Part shown: positions 18,401 through 45,948 of the stretch, piece after piece
Numbering within the stretch: position 1 is the stretch's first letter
Layout: every line of letters begins with the position of its first letter
Origin: Balneola sp.
Lineage (GTDB): Bacteria; Bacteroidota; Rhodothermia; Balneolales; Balneolaceae
Assembly: GCA_002694685.1 (NCBI GenBank)
Contig: NZMW01000004.1
Span: 306,632 to 370,631, forward strand
Direction: 5' to 3'
Length of the DNA stretch: 64,000 bases
The notes under the pieces: model-generated
What the model was told of the DNA's origin: nothing
The model's database searches: none
The model's input: only the letters and a program-made list of their open reading frames with translations
Translations under genes and position numbers: made by a program

Positions 18401-19735
18401 ATGAATCAATTAGAAAATCTTTTAAATAAAATCACCGATAAAACCTACACCATAGGTATTGTAGGATTAGGGTACGTAGGTTTACCACTAATGTGGACCT
18501 TCCACCAGGTCGGAATGCCCGTCATCGGCTATGATATAGACGAGAAAAAAGTAGAAAACCTCAAAAACGGCATCCCCTACATCAAGCACCTCGGAACCGA
18601 GATGATGGAAACCCTCGCCAACTCCGACAAGGCCGATGCCACCACCGATTTTTCCCGGTTGGATGAAGCCGATGCTATACTACTTTGCGTGCCTACTCCT
18701 TTAGACCACCACCGCGAGCCGGATATGAGCTATGTGGAGCAGACCACGGAAACCGTTTCGAAATATTTACGCAAGGGGCAGCTCGTGATCCTCGAATCAA
18801 CAACCTGGCCGGGAACAACTGAGGAGCTGATGATGCCCATCCTTGAGAAGAACTCCGGGCTGAAAGCAGGAAAAGATTTTTATGTGGCCTACAGCCCTGA
18901 GCGCGAAGATCCGGGTAACCCGAATTTCAATACGGCTAAAATCCCCAAAGTGGTGGGTGGACTTGGAGAAGAGGCCCTAAATTTAGCTTTGGCTATGTAC
19001 GATACCGCTATCGTACAAACGGTACCAGTAAGCGATTGTAAAACCGCGGAAGCTGTAAAGCTGACCGAAAACATCTTCCGCTCGGTGAATATTGCCCTGG
19101 TGAATGAGCTGAAGGTGGTGTACGAAGCCATGGATATTGATGTACACGAAGTGCTGGATGCCGCTGATACCAAGCCCTTTGGCTTCATGAAATTTACGCC
19201 CGGGCCCGGACTGGGCGGTCACTGTATTCCCATTGACCCGTTCTACCTCACCTGGAAAGCCCGCGAGTTTGAGAAGCACACCCGCTTCATTGAGCTGGCC
19301 GGAGAGGTAAACACGAATATGCCCACCTACGTGGTGGACCGAACCATGCACGCCCTCAATACCCACAAGAAAGCCATGAACGGCAGCATGATCCTCGTGA
19401 TCGGCCTTGCCTACAAACCGGATGTGGATGATATGCGCGAATCCCCGACCTTCAAGATCTTTGATCTGCTGAAGAAAATGGGAGCCGAGATTTCTTATTA
19501 CGACCCGTTTATTCCTGAAGTGATGCCGACCCGTGAGCATGGAGAGTACACAGGAATGCAAACTGTAGACTGGAACAAAGAAACAGTGTCAGGTTTTGAT
19601 GCAGTGTTGATCTCTACTAATCATTCGACAATTGATTATGCTGAACTAGCTGTGTGGAGTGATTGTATAATTGATACACGAAATGCAATGGCAGGTATTG
19701 AGGCCAAAGATGGGAATCATATTTTTAAAGCCTAA
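18401..19735 (+). CDS. nucleotide-sugar dehydrogenase, WbpA/WecC type (UDP-HexNAc 6-dehydrogenase)
   Basis: The 444-residue protein belongs to the UDP-glucose/UDP-ManNAc dehydrogenase superfamily. It has NAD-binding IGIVGLGYVGLPL (18-30), the central ESTTWPGTTEE and YSPEREDPGN, and the catalytic Cys in GPGLGGHCIPIDPFYLTWKA. The RED/RxDPG pattern and the GHCIPIDP form are typical of the UDP-N-acetylhexosamine 6-dehydrogenases (WbpA, UDP-GlcNAc to UDP-GlcNAcA; WecC, UDP-ManNAc to UDP-ManNAcA) rather than of Ugd. The central ~1.05 kb is visibly GC-richer than both ends, a mosaic look discussed under findings. Confidence 0.88.
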   Translation: MNQLENLLNKITDKTYTIGIVGLGYVGLPLMWTFHQVGMPVIGYDIDEKKVENLKNGIPYIKHLGTEMMETLANSDKADATTDFSRLDEADAILLCVPTPLDHHREPDMSYVEQTTETVSKYLRKGQLVILESTTWPGTTEELMMPILEKNSGLKAGKDFYVAYSPEREDPGNPNFNTAKIPKVVGGLGEEALNLALAMYDTAIVQTVPVSDCKTAEAVKLTENIFRSVNIALVNELKVVYEAMDIDVHEVLDAADTKPFGFMKFTPGPGLGGHCIPIDPFYLTWKAREFEKHTRFIELAGEVNTNMPTYVVDRTMHALNTHKKAMNGSMILVIGLAYKPDVDDMRESPTFKIFDLLKKMGAEISYYDPFIPEVMPTREHGEYTGMQTVDWNKETVSGFDAVLISTNHSTIDYAELAVWSDCIIDTRNAMAGIEAKDGNHIFKA

Positions 19736-30221: not shown

Positions 30222-31526
30222 ATGAATTTATTAAAAGATCTTTTATTGACCTACAAGGGTATTAGGTTTTATGATGATACTTTAAAAAAGACACAGTATC
30301 TCGATAAAGAAAGCATTAGGAAACTGCAATTTGAGAAAATTAAGATACTACTTGTAAAATCATTCAATGAAATAAAATTTTACAGAGATTTATTTCAGTC
30401 AATTGGATTCGATCCTAATTCGGATTTTAATTCTCTTGATGACTTGGAAAAAATTCCCATCCTTACCAAGGAGACGGCAAGAGAGAATCAGTCAAACTTG
30501 ATTAATCCTAATTACTCTGATACTTCTCTTGAATTCAGAACCAGTGGCACAACCGGGGATAAATTTGTTTCATATGTAAGTGAGAATCAATGGATTGTAG
30601 AGCAAGGAATAGTTTGGCGTCATTGGAAATGGGCTGGATATAAGTTCCGTGATAAAATGGCTATCATAAGGTCATATGTGCCTGAAGGCGAAGATGAAGG
30701 ATTATGGAAATATGAAAGAATGCGGAATTTTCTCTTCTTCTCTGCATATCATTTAAACGCTAAAAATTCTAAAATTTATTTAGATAAGATCAAGGATTGG
30801 AAACCTAAATTCTTAAGAGGGTACCCATCCTCGTTATATATTTTGGCTAAAATGGCTGAGAAATATGAAATTAAATTAGATGGACTCAAAGGAATATTAA
30901 CAGCTTCAGAAACACTTTTACCTCATTACCGAGAAAAAATTGAATCTGTTTTTGGAACTAAAGTATTTGACTGGTATGGTCAAGCAGAAGCTACCATTGT
31001 ATTTACAGAATGTGAAGCACATGAAGGCATGCATATTAACTCAGAATACGGATATTGTGAGTTAATAGAAGATTCAAGTCTTGATAAAGGCGAATATAAG
31101 ATTGTTGCCACCAATTTGAATAATTATGCAATGCCTTTAATAAGATATGATACAGGAGATGTAGCTGTAGTTGAAGATCAAAATAAATGTTCATGCGGAA
31201 GAACATTACCTTTAATTAAATCAATTAAAGGTAGATCTGATGACTTCTTATTTGGAGATGATGGAAGGGAAATACCTAGTGTGAATCTTTATACTATGAT
31301 GTACAAATTTGATGGGATTGTTTCATTTCAATTTGTTCAAGAAAAAGAACAAGAAGTGATACTTAAGATTGAAGGAACCAATATTACAGATGAGGTATTA
31401 GATACGCTTAGAAACAAGATGCTTAAGAGATTTGGTAAAGACATGAAGATAAATATTGATACATCCGGTGACTTTATCCTTTCAGGCGAGGGAAAGAAGA
31501 ACCCCATTATAAATCGATTGAATTAG
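30222..31526 (+). CDS. CapK-like adenylate-forming enzyme (phenylacetate-CoA ligase family)
   Basis: The 434-residue protein has the adenylate-forming signature FRTSGTTGDKFVSYV near residues 110-124. DWYGQAEATIVFTECEAHEGMH and PLIRYDTGDVAVVE follow, then the Cys-containing CSCGRTLPLIKSIKGRSDDF, typical of PaaK/CapK-type ligases. CapK-like genes occur in many capsule loci, but their substrate is unknown; activation of a carboxylic acid as acyl-AMP or acyl-CoA for decorating the glycan is the usual guess. It is the first of a tightly packed series with the PHP and aminotransferase genes. Confidence 0.85.
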   Translation: MNLLKDLLLTYKGIRFYDDTLKKTQYLDKESIRKLQFEKIKILLVKSFNEIKFYRDLFQSIGFDPNSDFNSLDDLEKIPILTKETARENQSNLINPNYSDTSLEFRTSGTTGDKFVSYVSENQWIVEQGIVWRHWKWAGYKFRDKMAIIRSYVPEGEDEGLWKYERMRNFLFFSAYHLNAKNSKIYLDKIKDWKPKFLRGYPSSLYILAKMAEKYEIKLDGLKGILTASETLLPHYREKIESVFGTKVFDWYGQAEATIVFTECEAHEGMHINSEYGYCELIEDSSLDKGEYKIVATNLNNYAMPLIRYDTGDVAVVEDQNKCSCGRTLPLIKSIKGRSDDFLFGDDGREIPSVNLYTMMYKFDGIVSFQFVQEKEQEVILKIEGTNITDEVLDTLRNKMLKRFGKDMKINIDTSGDFILSGEGKKNPIINRLN

Positions 31527-32342
31527 ATGATTAATATAGATTTTCATCTTCATACTCATAAATCTTTTGATGGGTATAATAGCTATAACCAAATATTAAA
31601 GCAGTGTATATTAAAAAACATACATGCCGTGGCATTTACTGACCACGATGTTATTAAAATACCACAAAAAGTTTATAGACTTTTTGAAAAAAATAACATC
31701 AAAATTATTTCAGGTTGTGAATTTACAACAGATAAAGGTGCCCACATAATTGGTCTGTTCATAGATCAATGTAAAATTAATCTTTCTCTTGAAGAATTAG
31801 TAGAATATGTGAAGAAACAAAATGGCTTGCTTTATATCCCACATCCATTTAAGCAGGAATCGGGTGTATTTGATGTATATTCTCTGCAAAATGATTCTGT
31901 TGAAAAATTATTACTCAATTCTTCATTTATCGAATTGTACAATGGTGGGTGGGATTCAGAAAAATATGGTAATGAAATAAAAAAAATTTCAAAGAAGTAT
32001 GATTTAAGATTAGTTGCTGGGAGTGATGCACACAAACCTTGGCAAATAGGATATTACCTTAATGCTTATAATCAAAAAGACAACAAAGACATAAGGGGTT
32101 TAATACTTCAAGAAAACCCAAAGCTGCTAAAAATTAAGACAGGTAAAACTGTTGTGAAAAGGTCCGATGAAAAAAAATACTTTGTTGGTTTAAGAAATAG
32201 CACACTTATTAAAAGGGGGAAAAAAATTGTGCCTTTCAAATTAAGACAGTCAATTAAAAAGTTCTTTACTTACCCAAAAATTTATTTTAAGAACTTAAAT
32301 AAAACAAATTCAAAAGTTAAATATTCCCAGTTAAATGATTGA
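31527..32342 (+). CDS. PHP-domain metal-dependent phosphoesterase/hydrolase
   Basis: The 271-residue protein carries all PHP metal motifs: DFHLHTHKSFDG (5-16), AVAFTDHDVIKIP, SGCEFTTDKGAHIIG, IPHPFKQESG and AGSDAHKPWQIG. These belong to a trinuclear-metal phosphoesterase domain, related to HisK-type histidinol-phosphate phosphatase and to nucleoside 3',5'-phosphatases. It begins directly at the stop of the CapK-like gene. The C-terminal 60 residues are basic and unassigned. Being next to a HisC-like aminotransferase, it could dephosphorylate a product of that enzyme, which is inference. Confidence 0.85.
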   Translation: MINIDFHLHTHKSFDGYNSYNQILKQCILKNIHAVAFTDHDVIKIPQKVYRLFEKNNIKIISGCEFTTDKGAHIIGLFIDQCKINLSLEELVEYVKKQNGLLYIPHPFKQESGVFDVYSLQNDSVEKLLLNSSFIELYNGGWDSEKYGNEIKKISKKYDLRLVAGSDAHKPWQIGYYLNAYNQKDNKDIRGLILQENPKLLKIKTGKTVVKRSDEKKYFVGLRNSTLIKRGKKIVPFKLRQSIKKFFTYPKIYFKNLNKTNSKVKYSQLND

Positions 32343-33426
32343 GCCTGTAAAATTTATTGAGGATTTGAAAGCCTATAATGTGACCTCACAGGAAGTATGG
32401 CGGGTTCAAGATAATTCCAAAAGTTTAAAACTGGATTGGAACGAATCTGTTGAATCACATAGAATAGTAAAAAAGGCACTAATAGATTTCATAGAGAATA
32501 ATGAGGGTGCCATAAAATGGTATCCTGATGTAGAGGCTGCGGATCTTAGGGAATCATTAAGTGACTATCTAAATGTTTCAAGACTAGATATATCTGTATT
32601 TGGAGGATCAGACGTAGCACTTGAAACGGTTGCTAGAACTTATTGTGGACCAGGCGACAAAGTAGTATCTGTTGTTCCTTCTTATGATAATTTTAGGGTA
32701 TATATTGAATCCACGGGTGCTGAAATCTATAATATTTATTTTAATCCTATGGATAAAGACATTGATGGGTTATCAACGAAATTTCAAAGCTTAGACTTTA
32801 CTCCAAAACTTATTTATATAAACAATCCAAATAATCCTATTGGATATCATATTTCTATAGATGAAATAGAGTCTTTATTAATAAAATTTAAAGATTCCCT
32901 TTTTATTATTGACGAAGCATATATTGAATTTTTAGGCAAATCACATTCTACGGTTTCTTTAGTTGAAAACTATGAAAACATAGTTGTTGCTCGTTCATTT
33001 TCAAAAGCTTTCGGTTTAGCAGGTTTAAGATTGGGATATATTGTCTCTAATCGTGCAAATTTATTGCATATCAATAAAATTAGAAATGGGAAGAATATCT
33101 CTATGTTTGCTCAAATAGCAGGTAAAGTGCTTATTGATAATTCTCAATATGTGACTGCGTATGTAGAAAAGGTCAATGAATCAAAAAAATGGTTTCTACA
33201 TAATCTAAAGAAGCATGGAATAACAGCCCATGGTAGCAAGGCGAATTTTGTTTTGGTGGAAGTTACAAATCCAGAGCAGGTTCTTATGCAGCTAAAGAGA
33301 GAGAATATTTATGTTAGAAATAGAAGCCATATGGAAGGGTTAGAAAACATGATTCGGATTACTATAGGCAATAAAGAAGTAATGAAAAGAACTTTTGACG
33401 TATTAAAACAGGTCACAAAAAGATAA
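32335..33426 (+). CDS. HisC/CobD-like PLP aminotransferase
   Basis: A 363-residue fold-type I aminotransferase of the histidinol-phosphate aminotransferase group. It shows LKLDWNESVESH, WYPDVEAADLRESLSDYL, FGGSDVALETVARTYCGPGD, YINNPNNPIGYH, and the PLP lysine in ARSFSKAFGLAGLRLGY. No other histidine gene is near, and it overlaps the PHP gene by 8 bases and abuts the next gene, so it most likely serves the polysaccharide locus. HisC-like proteins in such loci have also been found to be amino-acid phosphate decarboxylases or transaminases; the substrate is open. Confidence 0.87.
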   Translation: MIEPVKFIEDLKAYNVTSQEVWRVQDNSKSLKLDWNESVESHRIVKKALIDFIENNEGAIKWYPDVEAADLRESLSDYLNVSRLDISVFGGSDVALETVARTYCGPGDKVVSVVPSYDNFRVYIESTGAEIYNIYFNPMDKDIDGLSTKFQSLDFTPKLIYINNPNNPIGYHISIDEIESLLIKFKDSLFIIDEAYIEFLGKSHSTVSLVENYENIVVARSFSKAFGLAGLRLGYIVSNRANLLHINKIRNGKNISMFAQIAGKVLIDNSQYVTAYVEKVNESKKWFLHNLKKHGITAHGSKANFVLVEVTNPEQVLMQLKRENIYVRNRSHMEGLENMIRITIGNKEVMKRTFDVLKQVTKR

Positions 33427-35571
33427 ATGAAACAAATCATCCAAGACCTCAAATCCGGCGACACTATTTTAGAAGAAGTACCTGTACCCCGAGTCGGTTC
33501 CGGTAAAGTGCTCATCAAAACCCACCGCACCCTTGTTTCCCTGGGAACAGAAAAAATGCTGGTCAGCTTTGGACAGGCCAATCTGTTAGATAAAGCACGA
33601 TCACAGCCTGAGAAAGTCAAACAAGTAATTGATAAAATGAAAACCGATGGTATCCAACCCACGTTGGAGGCGGTATTTCGTAAGTTGGGAACGCCCTTGC
33701 CGTTAGGCTACAGTCAGGCCGGTGAGGTGGTTGAAGTGGGAAAAGGCGTAACGGAATTCAGTCCCGGAGACCGGGTGGTATCCAACGGCAATCATGCTGA
33801 GTATGTAGCGGTCCCCAAAAACCTGGTGGCTAAGATCCCAGAAGGCGTTTCGTATGAAGAAGCCTCCTTTACTGTAGTTGGCGCTATCGGTTTACAGGGT
33901 ATTCGCTTGGTTCAGCCTACGTTGGGTGAAACGGTAGCTGTAATCGGCTTGGGACTTATCGGACTCATTACAGCCCAGCTTCTCAAAGCTAACGGTTGCA
34001 AGGTAGTTGGGTTTGATCTCGATGAAGATAAGCTGAAACGGGCAGAAAGTTATGGCATCACCGCCGTCAATTCCGGCAAGCAAGACCCGGTTCGCTTCAT
34101 GGAAGAATTTACCGGTCAGGTAGGAGCGGATGCGGTGATCATTACCGCTAGTACCAAATCCAATGATGTGATCAAGCAGTCCGCCAATATGAGTCGCAAG
34201 CGCGGGCGAATTGTGCTGGTAGGTGTTGTGGGCCTGGACATCGACCGGGCAGATTTTTATGAGAAAGAGCTGAGTTTCCAGGTAAGCTGTTCCTATGGAC
34301 CCGGCCGCTATGATGAAGAGTACGAGCAGCGCGGAAATGATTACCCACTGCCTTTTGTACGTTGGACCGAAAAGCGAAATTTTGAAGCCATACTGGAAGC
34401 CATACGAAACGGCAGCCTGGATGTACAATCCCTGATCACCGAAAGGGTGAAATTGGAAGATTATTTGGAGATCTATGGGGATATGGGGAGAGGGAATAGC
34501 ATAGCTTCTATTTTAGAATACCCGGGTTCGAACATCGAACAAGGAACATCCAACATACAACGGCGAACGATTTCGATTTCGAGTCCGAGTTATAAATCTT
34601 CAAAAGGCACGATTGCGATCGTGGGGGCTGGAAACTTTACGCAAGCGATGATTTTGCCAGCATTGGATAAGGTTGGAGCTTCCATGAAATATGTCGTGAG
34701 TTCTGGTGGTCTTTCTTCTACCACTCTTGCCAAAAAATATAAGATACCAAACAGCACTACGGATTTGGATGCAGTGTTAAGTGATGAGGAAGTGGATGGG
34801 GTGGTTATAACTACTCAACACAACCTGCACGCCGGAATGACGATTCAATCCTTGAGAGCCGGAAAGCAGGTGTTTGTAGAAAAACCGCTGGCACTGAAAC
34901 CGGAAGAGCTGGATGAGATCATTTCCTCAGTGGAAGAAACAGGAAGTACGGTGACGGTTGGTTTCAACCGCCGTTTCTCACCCCATGCCGAGAAAATGAG
35001 AGCATTGATTGGTGAACGACCGGGCCCCATGAATGTCATCGCTACCATGAATGCCGGACATATTCCACCGGATGTATGGGTTCACGATTTGGAATCCGGT
35101 GGGGGACGCATTGTCGGCGAAGCCTGTCACTATGTAGATCTGATCACCTACCTGACCGGCTCCAAAGTGATGGAAGTCAGCATGCAGGCCATGGGCACCG
35201 ATCCCAAAGAAAACACCGATAACGCCTCCATCCACCTGAAATACGAAAACGGGTCGCTCGGCGTGATCAACTACTTTGCCAACGGCAACAAATCTTACTC
35301 CAAAGAACGGGTGGAAGTGTACTACCAGGGCAACAACCTCATCCTCGACAACTTTCGCCGTCTGGACGGCTACGGTTTCGGAGGCGGCTTTACCAGTAAG
35401 ATCCTCAAAACCAAACAAGACAAAGGCCACCACAAGCAATTCGAGCTCCTAACCAAACGCTGGAAAGAAGGCGGAGAGCCACTAATTCCATTTGATGAAA
35501 TTGTGAATACAACGAAGGCAACCTTTGCGGCTATTGAGAGTTTGAAGCAAGGTAAGCCGGTGAGGATTTAG
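33427..35571 (+). CDS. two-domain oxidoreductase: zinc-type alcohol dehydrogenase fused to Gfo/Idh/MocA
   Basis: The 714-residue protein has an N-terminal medium-chain dehydrogenase domain (about 1-355: PLPLGYSQAGEVVEVGKGV, AVIGLGLIGLITAQLLKANG). A C-terminal Gfo/Idh/MocA domain follows (about 390-714: TIAIVGAGNFTQAMILPAL, VFVEKPLAL, GFNRRFSPHAEKM, GGRIVGEACHYVDL). This fusion is a recurrent type found with heparinase-like and 2-epimerase genes in polysaccharide loci; its reaction is not established, probably redox steps on a nucleotide sugar or uronate. The ~30-residue linker (364-395) is coded by sequence that looks like an intergenic repeat. GC content rises sharply at its start. Confidence 0.9.
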   Translation: MKQIIQDLKSGDTILEEVPVPRVGSGKVLIKTHRTLVSLGTEKMLVSFGQANLLDKARSQPEKVKQVIDKMKTDGIQPTLEAVFRKLGTPLPLGYSQAGEVVEVGKGVTEFSPGDRVVSNGNHAEYVAVPKNLVAKIPEGVSYEEASFTVVGAIGLQGIRLVQPTLGETVAVIGLGLIGLITAQLLKANGCKVVGFDLDEDKLKRAESYGITAVNSGKQDPVRFMEEFTGQVGADAVIITASTKSNDVIKQSANMSRKRGRIVLVGVVGLDIDRADFYEKELSFQVSCSYGPGRYDEEYEQRGNDYPLPFVRWTEKRNFEAILEAIRNGSLDVQSLITERVKLEDYLEIYGDMGRGNSIASILEYPGSNIEQGTSNIQRRTISISSPSYKSSKGTIAIVGAGNFTQAMILPALDKVGASMKYVVSSGGLSSTTLAKKYKIPNSTTDLDAVLSDEEVDGVVITTQHNLHAGMTIQSLRAGKQVFVEKPLALKPEELDEIISSVEETGSTVTVGFNRRFSPHAEKMRALIGERPGPMNVIATMNAGHIPPDVWVHDLESGGGRIVGEACHYVDLITYLTGSKVMEVSMQAMGTDPKENTDNASIHLKYENGSLGVINYFANGNKSYSKERVEVYYQGNNLILDNFRRLDGYGFGGGFTSKILKTKQDKGHHKQFELLTKRWKEGGEPLIPFDEIVNTTKATFAAIESLKQGKPVRI

Positions 35572-35631: not shown

Positions 35632-35985
35632 ATGAGAAACTTCAGAAAATACGAGGTATGGAAACGGGCAATTCAATTGTCTAAGGACATCTATACATTA
35701 ACCGAATCATTTCCTGATAAGGAGAAGTTTGCTCTTAGTAATCAAATCCAAAGGGCTGCAGTATCTGTAGCATCAAACATTGCTGAAGGTTCGTCCCGAA
35801 ATTCTGAGATTGAGTTTGTTCGATACTTAGAAATAGTAATGGGCTCTGCTTTTGAGGTAGAAACACAATTGATTATTGCTAATGAAATTGGTTATATCTC
35901 AAATAATAGATTAGAAGGAGAAGTTGAGAAACTGCACACCCTCCAAAAACAATTAAACCAATTCATTCAAAAAGTTAAAAGCTAA
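35632..35985 (+). CDS. four-helix bundle protein (S23/avd-like)
   Basis: A 117-residue all-helical protein with FRKYEVWKRAIQLSKDIY, FALSNQIQRAAVSVASNIAEGSSR and EFVRYLEIVMGSAFEVETQL. This is the hallmark of the family first known as the 23S rRNA intervening-sequence protein and related to the diversity-retroelement accessory protein Avd. Function is unknown; members bind nucleic acids in the retroelement cases. It sits alone inside a sugar operon, behind a hairpin, and its last base overlaps the ATG of the next gene, which suggests insertion into an existing operon. Confidence 0.88.
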   Translation: MRNFRKYEVWKRAIQLSKDIYTLTESFPDKEKFALSNQIQRAAVSVASNIAEGSSRNSEIEFVRYLEIVMGSAFEVETQLIIANEIGYISNNRLEGEVEKLHTLQKQLNQFIQKVKS

Positions 35986-37088
35986 TGCCAAAAGCTATCT
36001 ACATAGACCTAATCGCCGGAGCAAGACCAAATTTCATGAAAATTGCTCCCATCATTGACGCCATCAAGAAAGAGCAAAAACAGGGTACAGATATAGACTT
36101 CAGGCTGGTTCACACCGGTCAGCATTACGACAAAAACATGAGCGGGTCCTTCTTTGAACAACTCGGCATACCGGCCCCGGATGAAAATCTCGGAGCCGGT
36201 GGTGGAACCCAAGCCGAGCAAACGGCAGCCATTATGACCGGCTATGAAAAATTGCTAATGGATAAGCCATCCGATCTTTGTTTGGTGGTTGGAGATGTAA
36301 CTTCAACGATGGCTTGTGCCATTACCGCTCAAAAAATGCATATTCCTGTTGCTCATGTGGAGGGCGGAATTCGTTCCGGTGACTGGAAAATGCCGGAGGA
36401 GATCAATCGTTTGGCGACTGATGCTGTAACGAATTATTTTTTTACGACTTCAGATGTAGCCAATGCAAATCTGAAGAAAAGTGGAGTCGGGGACGAGCGC
36501 ATTTTCTTCGTGGGAAATACCATGATTGATACATTGCTGAAACACCGCCCAAGATTTCAAAAACCTCCTGTTTGGGACGAAGTTGGGCTGAAAGAAGGTA
36601 ATTACATCGTAATGACTTTACATCGCCCCTCCAATGTGGATGAGGAAGAAATTCTGAAATCCCTGATGGATGAGATCATTGCCAATACGCAAGATCTACC
36701 CTTGGTATTTCCGGTCCACCCCAGAACCGCTAAAATTTTGAAGAATCTGGGCATTTCCTATGAGCGATTGCATATGATCGAACCATTGGGCTATTTGGAA
36801 TTCAATTATTTGGTAGAGCGATCAAAGGCGGTTATTACAGACTCCGGCGGCATTACCGAAGAAACCACGGTAATGGGAATTCCCTGTATGACCCTTCGCA
36901 ATAGTACCGAACGCCCCGAAACGGTAGATATCGGCACCAATGAAATACTCGGCGTAAACCCTAAATCCATCCAGCCTGCCCTTGAAAAACTCTTCGCCGG
37001 TGAGTGGAAAAAAGGGGCAATACCGGAGCTTTGGGATGGAAAGACTTCTGGCAGGATTGTGAAGCACATCATTGAGTTGTTGAGTTAG
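35985..37088 (+). CDS. second UDP-GlcNAc 2-epimerase-like enzyme (WbpI-like group)
   Basis: The 367-residue protein is of the 2-epimerase family, but with DLIAGARPNFMKIAPIIDAI instead of GTRPEAIKMA. It also has LVHTGQHYDKNMSGSFF, VVGDVTSTMACAITAQ, VAHVEGGIRSGDWKMPEE and ITDSGGITEETTVMGIPC. The GARPNFMK form is seen in epimerases of 2,3-diacetamido uronates (WbpI) and in variants of unknown specificity. It therefore may act on UDP-GlcNAc3NAcA made by the WbpA/B/E-like enzymes of this window; this is inference. Its start overlaps the four-helix-bundle gene by one base. Confidence 0.87.
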   Translation: MPKAIYIDLIAGARPNFMKIAPIIDAIKKEQKQGTDIDFRLVHTGQHYDKNMSGSFFEQLGIPAPDENLGAGGGTQAEQTAAIMTGYEKLLMDKPSDLCLVVGDVTSTMACAITAQKMHIPVAHVEGGIRSGDWKMPEEINRLATDAVTNYFFTTSDVANANLKKSGVGDERIFFVGNTMIDTLLKHRPRFQKPPVWDEVGLKEGNYIVMTLHRPSNVDEEEILKSLMDEIIANTQDLPLVFPVHPRTAKILKNLGISYERLHMIEPLGYLEFNYLVERSKAVITDSGGITEETTVMGIPCMTLRNSTERPETVDIGTNEILGVNPKSIQPALEKLFAGEWKKGAIPELWDGKTSGRIVKHIIELLS

Positions 37089-37279: not shown

Positions 37280-38899
37280 TTGAAAAAAAAAAAAATCCTT
37301 ATCATTGAGCCGTCATTAAACACAACTATGCTCAAAAAACTCTCTCGATACTATCACACCCTTAAGCACCTCAAGCCGATACAAATACGGTATCAGGTGT
37401 GGTATAGACTACGGAACAGGTTCTTTCCTATAAAGTATCCAGAAGAGGTAAAGCCATCAACCTTTCAAAAACTAAAACTCGCCCCATTCCCTGATCAATA
37501 CACTCACTATCTTGGAGATAATCATTTCCAGTTCCTCAATTTAGATCAGACCTTCAAAGAAGAAATAAACTGGAATTATGTAGGCCATGGTAAACTCTGG
37601 GTATACCATCTGAACTATTTTGACTATCTCCATCAACCTGAAATGGATTGGGAAACAGGGGAAGAACTGATTGAATCCTTTCTCCAAGATCTGCAAAACC
37701 GCCCGGAAGGATTGGAGCCCTATCCCGTTTCACTAAGAACTATTAACTGGATCAAGTTCCTTTCCAAACATGATCGATATCCACAGGAAATTGTTGATTC
37801 ATTATATGCACAATATCAGGTATTGACCAAAAAACTGGAATATCATTTGCTGGGAAATCACCTGTTGGAAAATGGATTTTCGTTGCTATTTGGAGCAATA
37901 TTTTTTCAAGATGAAAAATTGAATCGACTCACTCGAAAAATTCTAAAATCCGAACTGGAAGAACAAGTACTGGAAGACGGCGCTCATTTTGAACTGTCCC
38001 CAATGTATCATCTGATATTGTTACAACGGGCACTGGATGGATACAATCTACTCATCAACAATAAACATGAGCTTCAGGTTGTAGAGGAGCAATTAAAGGA
38101 AGCGATACAAGAAATGGTTAATTGGCTTCATACAATAATGTTCAGCAATGGAGACATTCCAATGCTCAATGACAGCACCGGAGGACAAGCTCTTGAACCC
38201 AAAGTAATCTTAAACTATGCAGAGCAGTTGGGTTTCTTACCTGAAAAAGTTCATCTTAAAGAATCCGGTTTTCGAAAGTTTGTAGCCGGAAATTTTGAAG
38301 TAGTGGCAGATATTGGGCAAGTAGGCCCAACATACCAGCCCGCACATGCCCATTCAGATACACTGTCTTTTGTATTATATCATCAAGGGAAGCCTGTCAT
38401 AGTAGATCGCGGAATTTCAACCTATGAAAAAAACCAAATTCGGGAAGATGAAAGGGGGACTGCCTCACATAATACTGTAATGATTAACAGTAAAGAGCAG
38501 ACCGACGTATGGGGTGGATTCAGAGTAGGGAGGAGGGCAAAGCCTTTTATCCTGGAAGAGTCAGAATTAATGTTGATGGCAAGTCATACTGGGTATGATA
38601 GAATGGGTATAGGACATATTCGGGAATGGCAGGTTCAGGAAAATAAGATTCAAATCATAGATCGAATTGAAGGAGATAAAGCAGAGGGACTGGCTTTTTT
38701 ACACCTTCATCCAGATATCGAACCTGAACAAACAGAAGAAGGGATTTTCAGACTAAATAACCATATTTTAAGCTTTGATAATTTTAAATATGTGAGAAAA
38801 GAAAAATATGCCTTTTGCTTAGGTTTTAATAAAAAGGTAATAGCTTATAAAATTAGAATAGAATTTAAAGGGGTATTAAAAACAACAATTAAAGAATGA
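37280..38899 (+). CDS. heparinase II/III-like protein of polysaccharide loci
   Basis: The 539-residue protein has the alpha-barrel and beta-sheet layout of heparinase II/III-type lyases. The N-terminus has LKHLKPIQIRYQVWYRLRNR, the middle has NHLLENGFSLLFGA and EDGAHFELSPMYHL, and the C-terminal domain has HAHSDTLSFVLYHQGKPVIV then GTASHNTVMIN. No signal peptide is visible, so it probably stays in the cytoplasm, unlike degradative lyases. Start choice is uncertain: TTG 37280 has GGGAG upstream but runs into 13 consecutive A, whereas ATG 37328 begins at the point where homologues usually start. It overlaps the next gene by 4 bases. Substrate is unknown. Confidence 0.85.
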   Translation: MKKKKILIIEPSLNTTMLKKLSRYYHTLKHLKPIQIRYQVWYRLRNRFFPIKYPEEVKPSTFQKLKLAPFPDQYTHYLGDNHFQFLNLDQTFKEEINWNYVGHGKLWVYHLNYFDYLHQPEMDWETGEELIESFLQDLQNRPEGLEPYPVSLRTINWIKFLSKHDRYPQEIVDSLYAQYQVLTKKLEYHLLGNHLLENGFSLLFGAIFFQDEKLNRLTRKILKSELEEQVLEDGAHFELSPMYHLILLQRALDGYNLLINNKHELQVVEEQLKEAIQEMVNWLHTIMFSNGDIPMLNDSTGGQALEPKVILNYAEQLGFLPEKVHLKESGFRKFVAGNFEVVADIGQVGPTYQPAHAHSDTLSFVLYHQGKPVIVDRGISTYEKNQIREDERGTASHNTVMINSKEQTDVWGGFRVGRRAKPFILEESELMLMASHTGYDRMGIGHIREWQVQENKIQIIDRIEGDKAEGLAFLHLHPDIEPEQTEEGIFRLNNHILSFDNFKYVRKEKYAFCLGFNKKVIAYKIRIEFKGVLKTTIKE

Positions 38900-44743: not shown

Positions 44744-44775
44744 TGGCCTTATTATAAATCAGAAAAATATTGAAC

Positions 44776-45948
44776 ATGAAGATTGCTGTTGCCGGAACCG
44801 GATATGTTGGCCTTTCACTTGCTGTATTGTTATCACAAAATCATGAAGTGGTAGCCCTTGATATACTCGAAGAAAAAGTTAATCTGATCAATAATGGTAT
44901 ATCGCCTATTACCGATCGGGATATTGAAAAATTTCTTAAGGAAGAGAGTCTGCAACTTAAAGCTACACTTGATAAAGAGGAGGCTTATAAAGGTGCCGAG
45001 TATGTGATTATCGCCACTCCCACAGACTATGATCCGGAAACCAATGAATTCAATACCAGATCTGTAGAAGCAGTTATTCGGGATGTGAATAAGATCAACC
45101 CTGATGCTACTATGGTTATCAAATCAACTATTCCGGTGGGTTATGTGAAAGAAATTAAAGAGAAATTTGGGATTGATAACCTGATATTTTCGCCAGAATT
45201 TCTCAGAGAGGGGAAAGCTCTGCATGATAATTTATATCCATCCCGAATAGTAGTGGGAGAACAGTCAGAAAGAGCCAGGGTTTTTGCCAATTTATTAATT
45301 GAGGGTGCAAAGGAGAATGCTGATAACATCCCTGTTCTTTTTACCGATAACACCGAGGCTGAGGCTATTAAGCTGTTTTCAAATACCTATCTGGCTATGA
45401 GGGTTGCTTATTTCAATGAGCTTGATTCTTATTGCGAATCACACAATATGAGTTCAAAGCAGGTGATCGAAGGGGTAGGGCTTGACCCAAGAATAGGAGA
45501 TCATTACAATAATCCATCTTTCGGATATGGAGGTTATTGTTTACCTAAAGATACTAAGCAGCTTTTAGCAAACTTTCATGACGTACCTAATAACTTAATT
45601 AGGGCTATAGTGGATGCTAACTCTACCCGAAAGGATTTTATAGCCCGCCAAATTTGGAAGAATGACCCTAAAATAGTTGGGGTTTACAGACTGGTTATGA
45701 AACAGGGGTCTGACAATTTCAGACAAAGTGCGATTCAGGGAATCATGAAGCGTATAAAGGCGAAAGGAATTGAAGTTGTGGTTTATGAACCCTACTTGGA
45801 ACAGGAAGAATTTTATCATTCTCGGGTTATTAAAGATCTGGATGAGTTTAAGGAGATTTCAGAAGTAATTATTGCCAACCGGATGGTAGAAGAGATCCGG
45901 GATGTTAAGGACAAGGTGTACACTCGGGATTTGTTTGGAACAGACTGA
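44776..45948 (+). CDS. ugd: UDP-glucose 6-dehydrogenase
   Basis: Ugd oxidises UDP-glucose to UDP-glucuronate with two NAD+. About 390 residues, like E. coli Ugd (388), with [72 protein letters not shown], and the catalytic Cys in [15 protein letters not shown]. An upstream TTG at 44770 is in frame, but ATG 44776 gives the normal start MKIAVAG. It has its own promoter and lies between two repeat islands, apart from the main operon. It supplies UDP-GlcA, and through the SDR at 17340 perhaps UDP-GalA. Confidence 0.95.

Follow-up and report, generated by a model that had tools for sequence, protein, structure and literature searches.

Introduction

The closest described counterpart of the gene cassette considered here, in which a CapK-like ligase, a PHP-family phosphoesterase and a HisC-like aminotransferase (AT) are encoded side by side in Balneola sp., is the route to amide decorations in the Campylobacter jejuni capsule. 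There, the pyridoxal 5'-phosphate (PLP) enzyme Cj1437 converts dihydroxyacetone phosphate to (S)-serinol phosphate by transamination, Cj1436 supplies the same ligase with ethanolamine phosphate by decarboxylating phosphoserine, amide formation with glucuronic acid is the task of the TupA-like ATP-grasp domain in Cj1438, and the phosphate is taken off by Cj1435, a HAD phosphatase (PMC11800397, PMC11800379). For serotype HS:19, the corresponding report assigns the phosphatase to HS19.09 and the ligase to the C-terminal domain of HS19.11, with HS19.10 and HS19.12 as predicted sources of serinol phosphate and UDP-glucuronic acid (PMC13276843). The N-terminal domain of Bradyrhizobium elkanii RtxA likewise produces serinol phosphate from dihydroxyacetone phosphate, followed by dephosphorylation (PMC3222319); by description it resembles the present case, but RtxA belongs to the rhizobitoxine pathway, unlike the Balneola cassette.

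The cassette lies in a stretch of 64,000 nucleotides (contig NZMW01000004.1 of assembly GCA_002694685.1, positions 306,632 to 370,631 of the forward strand), referred to as the window, in whose numbering positions are given below. Going by the published description, the cassette has in common with the C. jejuni module its place in a surface polysaccharide locus, a PLP enzyme, a phosphatase and a ligase that activates carboxylates with ATP, whereas PHP replaces the HAD phosphatase and CapK replaces the TupA-like ATP-grasp ligase. A second familiar likeness, the pairing of HisC with histidinol phosphatase, also joins a transaminase of a phosphate-bearing substrate to a phosphatase, but the window AT falls in a separate clade, at another locus, and scores below the curated cut-offs. 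We propose, with moderate confidence, that the three genes form an exchangeable module for a serinol-type amide decoration of an O-antigen or exopolysaccharide. Systems of this kind are already known; within the open-licence literature searched, an AT of this sort joined to PHP and CapK is a new combination.

A packed cassette conserved in distant bacteria

All three genes lie on the forward strand. CapK (30222-31526, 434 amino acids), a PaaK-like adenylate-forming ligase recognized by PF00501, its motifs and its CapK clade, is the proposed amide-forming ligase; the PHP-family phosphoesterase (31527-32342, 271 amino acids), recognized by PF02811, PF13263 and conserved residues, is a putative amino-alcohol phosphate phosphatase; and the HisC-like PLP aminotransferase (32335-33426, 363 amino acids), recognized by PF00155 and its separate clade, is the putative maker of the amino-alcohol phosphate. 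The TAG stop of CapK (31524-31526) is followed directly by the PHP start codon, ATG, at 31527, and the ATG of AT at 32335 lies before the end of the PHP stop, a TGA ending at 32342, which gives an 8-base overlap; the open reading frame (ORF) list and the sequence thus agree in coordinates and strand with the stop/start contact (31526/31527) and the overlap (32335-32342) reported in the preliminary description. The AT stop in turn abuts the next gene, a bi-domain oxidoreductase starting at 33427, and GC content steps exactly at 33426/33427, from 0.28-0.32 in the three cassette genes to 0.489 in the following gene. Promoter and terminator scans did no better than shuffled sequence (21 vs 19.0 and 4 vs 4.1, respectively).

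The same gene order recurs elsewhere. In a metagenome-assembled genome (MAG) of SAR86 (locus L018), CapK (43% identity), PHP (37%) and AT (40%) are followed by the oxidoreductase (48%) and a heparinase-like protein (31%), and PHP and AT likewise overlap by 8 bases if the AT start is the GTG at L018:6001. In Rhodohalobacter, for which two assemblies (G231 and G405) were counted as one genome because their places are identical, one contig (L006) carries CapK (92%) and PHP (87%) and ends inside AT, and another (L017) carries AT (89%), the oxidoreductase (89%) and the heparinase (66%). The neighbourhood search that had been suggested for the triple therefore finds it conserved in SAR86 and Rhodohalobacter, and the recurrence of the CapK-PHP-AT order exceeds chance.

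The aminotransferase forms a rare clade apart from HisC and CobD

AT matches PF00155 (Aminotran_1_2), and its best curated matches are HisC-like, but it remains below the cut-off of the HisC model TIGR01141 (257.7 vs 276.55 bits) and far below that of the threonine-phosphate decarboxylase (CobD) model TIGR01140 (171.8 vs 290.55 bits). In a maximum-likelihood tree of 42 rows, drawn from 22 of 30, 13 of 80 and 2 of 30 loci in three listings of relatives together with the window AT, L002 and L003 from the window genome (G000), L132 and L145, AT groups with six relatives in one clade (support 100/99), to which neither the nine CobD rows nor the HisC-family rows belong. A profile built from six members scores 434-594 bits inside the clade, including Escherichia coli L145 and L132, neither of which entered the profile, against 203 and 209 bits for the two other HisC-family proteins of the window genome. 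S223-K224, D193, R328 and R341 are invariant across the aligned clade rows. The window genome, which is 99.7% complete, has, on a different contig, hisC within a hisD-hisC-hisB run (genes named by eye from translations), as well as one further HisC-like gene. AT is accordingly distinct from histidine biosynthesis, as had been supposed, and lies outside both HisC and CobD in a genome with its own hisC; the CobD reading is ruled out by score and tree position.

The clade is rare. Profile searches of 394, 398 and 398 genomes from three phyla brought up no further member, with at most five candidates scored per genome, so that members could be missed; five other Bacillota matches (240-247 bits) resemble ordinary HisC-family genes, two of them within his operons. 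No plasmid match to AT appeared at E up to 1e-40, and the AT of L020 has only relatives of 24-31% identity in a phage collection.

Exchange of phosphatase and ligase partners across the clade

Eight loci carry an AT of this clade: the window, Rhodohalobacter, L018, a Bacteroidetes MAG (L019), two Lachnospiraceae loci (L020 and L021), E. coli Combat11I9 (L145) and a further Lachnospiraceae locus (L132). An adjacent phosphatase is present in all except L132, being PHP in three and HAD in four, and the same seven loci have an adjacent carboxylate-activating ligase, CapK in four and TupA-like ATP-grasp in three. L019 presents an intermediate set, CapK-AT-HAD, its HAD matching the Pfam HAD family, and L020 and L021 contain HAD, TupA-like ATP-grasp (PF14305) and AT contiguously. 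A DNA search with the AT of L020 (E limit 10; matches at E 2e-3) pointed to L145, an O-antigen locus in which AT, HAD and an ATP-grasp amidoligase stand right after galF and ahead of genes for a flippase, glycosyltransferases and a polymerase; by protein, its AT reaches 434 bits with the clade profile, and its HAD and ATP-grasp proteins are 26-37% and 45-47% identical, respectively, to those of other loci. The window and L145 thus share an AT of one clade, but the partners are PHP and CapK in the former and HAD and ATP-grasp in the latter. The HADs of L020, L021 and L145 are of the HAD-IB type, and the E. coli and Lachnospiraceae sets correspond part for part, by family only, to the C. jejuni set. 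No PF14305 protein occurs anywhere in the genomes G000, G401 or G402, all with CapK beside AT; Rhodohalobacter, the fourth CapK carrier, has one PF14305 on another contig.

Some further observations concern these loci. The O-antigen locus at L145:8439-17499 occurs in just 2 of 5,426 complete E. coli genomes. Serinol amides are known from E. coli O143 and from Shigella boydii type 8. Near the AT, HAD and ATP-grasp genes of L020 (L020:9393-12801), a part that looks by eye like a cytidylyltransferase is fused to a PRK05849/phosphoenolpyruvate (PEP)-synthase-like protein, and a relative of gamma-glutamyl-CDP-amidate hydrolase (111 bits vs a cut-off of 250), together with this fusion, recalls the phosphoramidate genes of C. 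jejuni. At L132, AT stands beside a phosphonopyruvate decarboxylase, an iron alcohol dehydrogenase, a PEP-mutase fusion and an asparagine-synthetase-like protein; the fusion in this phosphonate cluster (L142:5507-12892) is of the NTP-transferase/CTP-transferase/PEP-mutase type, and the clade AT there is possibly an unrecognised aminoalkylphosphonate transaminase.

The CapK and PHP proteins

CapK belongs to the PaaK/CapK-like adenylate-forming ligases, as judged from its sequence, and is not PaaK proper by TIGR02155 (101.1 vs 646.3 bits); it lies right at the cut-off of the AMP-binding family PF00501 (29.9 bits), and its matches to PaaK-like NCBIfam models are below their cut-offs. It carries the motifs TSGTTG, YDTGD and GRSDD and a C-terminal GK, and matches solved structures of PaaK-like enzymes (E as low as 2.6e-25), including AjiA1 and a 'PaaK-like ligase', both of which we take to be direct bond-forming ligases. 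The AT-linked CapKs form one clade (98/96) in a tree of 33 rows, whose other 29 rows, taken from 44 listed matches of which one is the window's own, all come from the window's phylum; L018 is the only gammaproteobacterial CapK sampled, and its branch is among the long ones, meeting inside the AT-linked clade, of which the tree program warned. CapK relatives at E up to 1e-20 are common, being found in 40 of the 118 genomes of the phylum sample. None of the 29 sampled non-window CapKs has a PHP, HAD or TupA match within ~1.4 kb, and seven of them lie near weak aminotransferase matches (22-28% identity, E 5e-11 to 4e-4).

The PHP protein exceeds the cut-off of PF02811 (49.7 vs 26.4 bits), also matches PF13263 (PHP_C), and stays below that of the HisJ model TIGR01856 (28.5 vs 90.2 bits). 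H7, H9, H40, E65, H106, D167 and H169, presumably the metal ligands of the PHP family, are invariant in the window, L018 and L006. Matches to it at E up to 1e-8 occur in 12 of 394 genomes, full-length ones only in the window genome and G231, and it was not found in six other same-genus genomes searched; a structure prediction from a two-row alignment had a mean predicted local distance difference test score (pLDDT) of 38.8.

A proposed pathway and its alternatives

We infer the substrates, the product, the acceptor and the role of CapK as amide former as follows. AT would aminate a small phosphorylated carbonyl compound, for which dihydroxyacetone phosphate is the most likely candidate, and so produce serinol phosphate or something closely related; CapK would turn the carboxylate of a glycan uronic acid into an acyl-adenylate and hand the acyl group to the amine, yielding the amide; and the PHP phosphoesterase would strip the phosphate, before or after attachment. 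The acid activated by CapK would on this model be a uronic acid of the glycan, through its carboxylate, and not a free acid. The preliminary suggestion of an amino-acid or amino-alcohol decoration is partly borne out, in that the cassette is conserved, is not a histidine set and resembles the published capsule route; of the two, the amino alcohol is the likelier decoration, and its identity as serinol would be a prediction of the proposed pathway. The two nucleotide-sugar dehydrogenases within the window count for the uronate-amide model. A nucleotide-sugar dehydrogenase above cut-off was found in five of six genomes tested, on the same contig as AT in G000, G231, G402 and G403 and on other contigs in G404; the exception is the SAR86 genome. 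We further suggest, tentatively, that this CapK clade at least consists of direct amide-forming ligases that couple amines to glycan uronic acids, as a counterpart of the TupA-like ATP-grasp amidoligases, and that the CapK-PHP-AT module was put together independently as a serinol-amide pathway and has moved between Balneolaceae and SAR86.

Several points weigh against the serinol-amide proposal. The likeness of AT to Cj1437 is drawn from the published description, and only eight AT-clade loci are known. The clade may lack a single substrate, because L132 belongs to a phosphonate cluster and has no phosphatase beside its AT. In the SAR86 genome (1.1 Mb), where the upstream end of the cluster is off the contig, no nucleotide-sugar dehydrogenase scores above cut-off, which either counts against a strict requirement for uronate or reflects missing sequence. 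Finally, the role of CapK may be separate, because L236 is a locus of this sort with CapK but neither AT nor phosphatase. This last point leads to the view that two functions are merely neighbours, CapK making an acyl-CoA or activating another acid for sugar acylation and AT with PHP making an amino sugar or amine independently. PaaK-like enzymes usually form CoA thioesters, and this chemistry, the CapK of L236 beside the same oxidoreductase and the 29 CapKs lacking PHP, HAD or TupA neighbours within ~1.4 kb all speak for it; yet the AT-linked CapKs of three distant lineages are one clade, CapK stands next to clade ATs where other loci have the ATP-grasp ligase, and no acyltransferase family was matched among the flanking window genes examined, which leaves the view doubtful. 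The logic of the module might also hold with another amine, the PLP enzyme decarboxylating phosphoserine to ethanolamine phosphate in the manner of Cj1436 or making a different amino-alcohol phosphate. Cj1436 supplies the same C. jejuni ligase, and the sequence features used cannot separate a transaminase from a decarboxylase; we nevertheless regard this as unlikely, as AT scores best, among the curated models, with one for a transaminase and is separated in the tree from the CobD decarboxylase rows (Cj1436 was not among the sequences compared).

The remaining alternatives carry far less weight. An aminoalkylphosphonate route, with AT aminating phosphonoacetaldehyde or a similar phosphonate, is brought to mind by L132, whose AT adjoins phosphonopyruvate decarboxylase and the PEP-mutase fusion, but is very improbable for the window, where neither PEP mutase nor phosphonopyruvate decarboxylase was matched among the genes scanned and where a phosphatase partner suggests a phosphate ester. 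CpsB/YwqE-type PHP phosphatases are known in capsule loci, and PHP could by that token be a protein tyrosine phosphatase regulating export, unrelated to AT; this has very little in its favour, given that PF02811 and PF13263 were matched and no CpsB/CapC model was at E up to 0.001, that the PHP gene overlaps the AT gene, and that HAD phosphatases fill the place of PHP beside related ATs. That the genes are displaced histidine genes, a HisC with a HisJ-type phosphatase, agrees with the HisC-like best matches and the TIGR01141 score of AT and is nonetheless the least credible reading, largely refuted by the sub-threshold scores of both AT and PHP, the real hisC in its his run elsewhere and the separate AT clade.

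The surrounding glycan locus and a possible swap site

Domain searches place the cassette among glycosyltransferases, a Wzx-type flippase, sugar-nucleotide genes (including those for GDP-fucose), WecB-type epimerases and a heparinase-like protein, which confirms its setting amid glycan genes and away from the histidine genes, as originally described. On the same strand as the cassette are the bi-domain oxidoreductase abutting AT (33427-35571; zinc alcohol dehydrogenase and GFO_IDH_MocA domains), a WecB-type UDP-N-acetylglucosamine 2-epimerase (35985-37088; TIGR00236, 309 bits, above cut-off), the heparinase II/III-like protein (37280-38899), a homologue of which lies downstream of AT in SAR86 too, and the two nucleotide-sugar dehydrogenases, one at 18401-19735 (TIGR03026, 422.8 bits, above cut-off), a possible source of uronic acid, and the other at 44770-45948 (UDPG_MGDP_dh domains; TIGR03026, 342.9 bits). 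An ORF of 117 amino acids between the oxidoreductase and the WecB-type gene (35632-35985) looks by eye like a four-helix-bundle/S23 protein; a 40% relative follows the oxidoreductase in L236, and none was matched in L234.

Relatives of the oxidoreductase are preceded by other gene sets. In G293, of the same genus, an N-acetyl sugar amidotransferase (WbuX-type), HisH and HisF stand directly before it (L234:7352-12043; oxidoreductase 91%); in G183, also of the same genus, the amidotransferase, HisH and HisF are followed by one glycosyltransferase-like gene and the oxidoreductase (L235:3901-9698; 39-40%, by eye, from protein starts only); and in G053 CapK precedes it, with no AT or phosphatase within the 19 kb read (L236:8503-11934). 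Because these relatives carry different nitrogen-linked sets just upstream of the oxidoreductase, the site, which in the window corresponds to 30222-35571, appears to be a place where nitrogen-bearing decorations are swapped. The oxidoreductase is probably part of the backbone of the locus rather than of the module; its candidacy as a fourth cassette member was set aside, since no AT stands beside it in G293, G183 or G053 and the GC difference is sharp, despite the order AT-oxidoreductase-heparinase being kept in SAR86.

Significance

To our knowledge, no function has been demonstrated for the CapK-like proteins of polysaccharide loci, and the literature searches brought none to view. The cassette offers a concrete and testable job for one clade of these common genes, and the AT clade, easily mistaken for HisC, would serve as a marker for amino-alcohol amide decoration outside Campylobacter. 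It suggests that such decorations may be present in marine bacteria and in one E. coli O-antigen.

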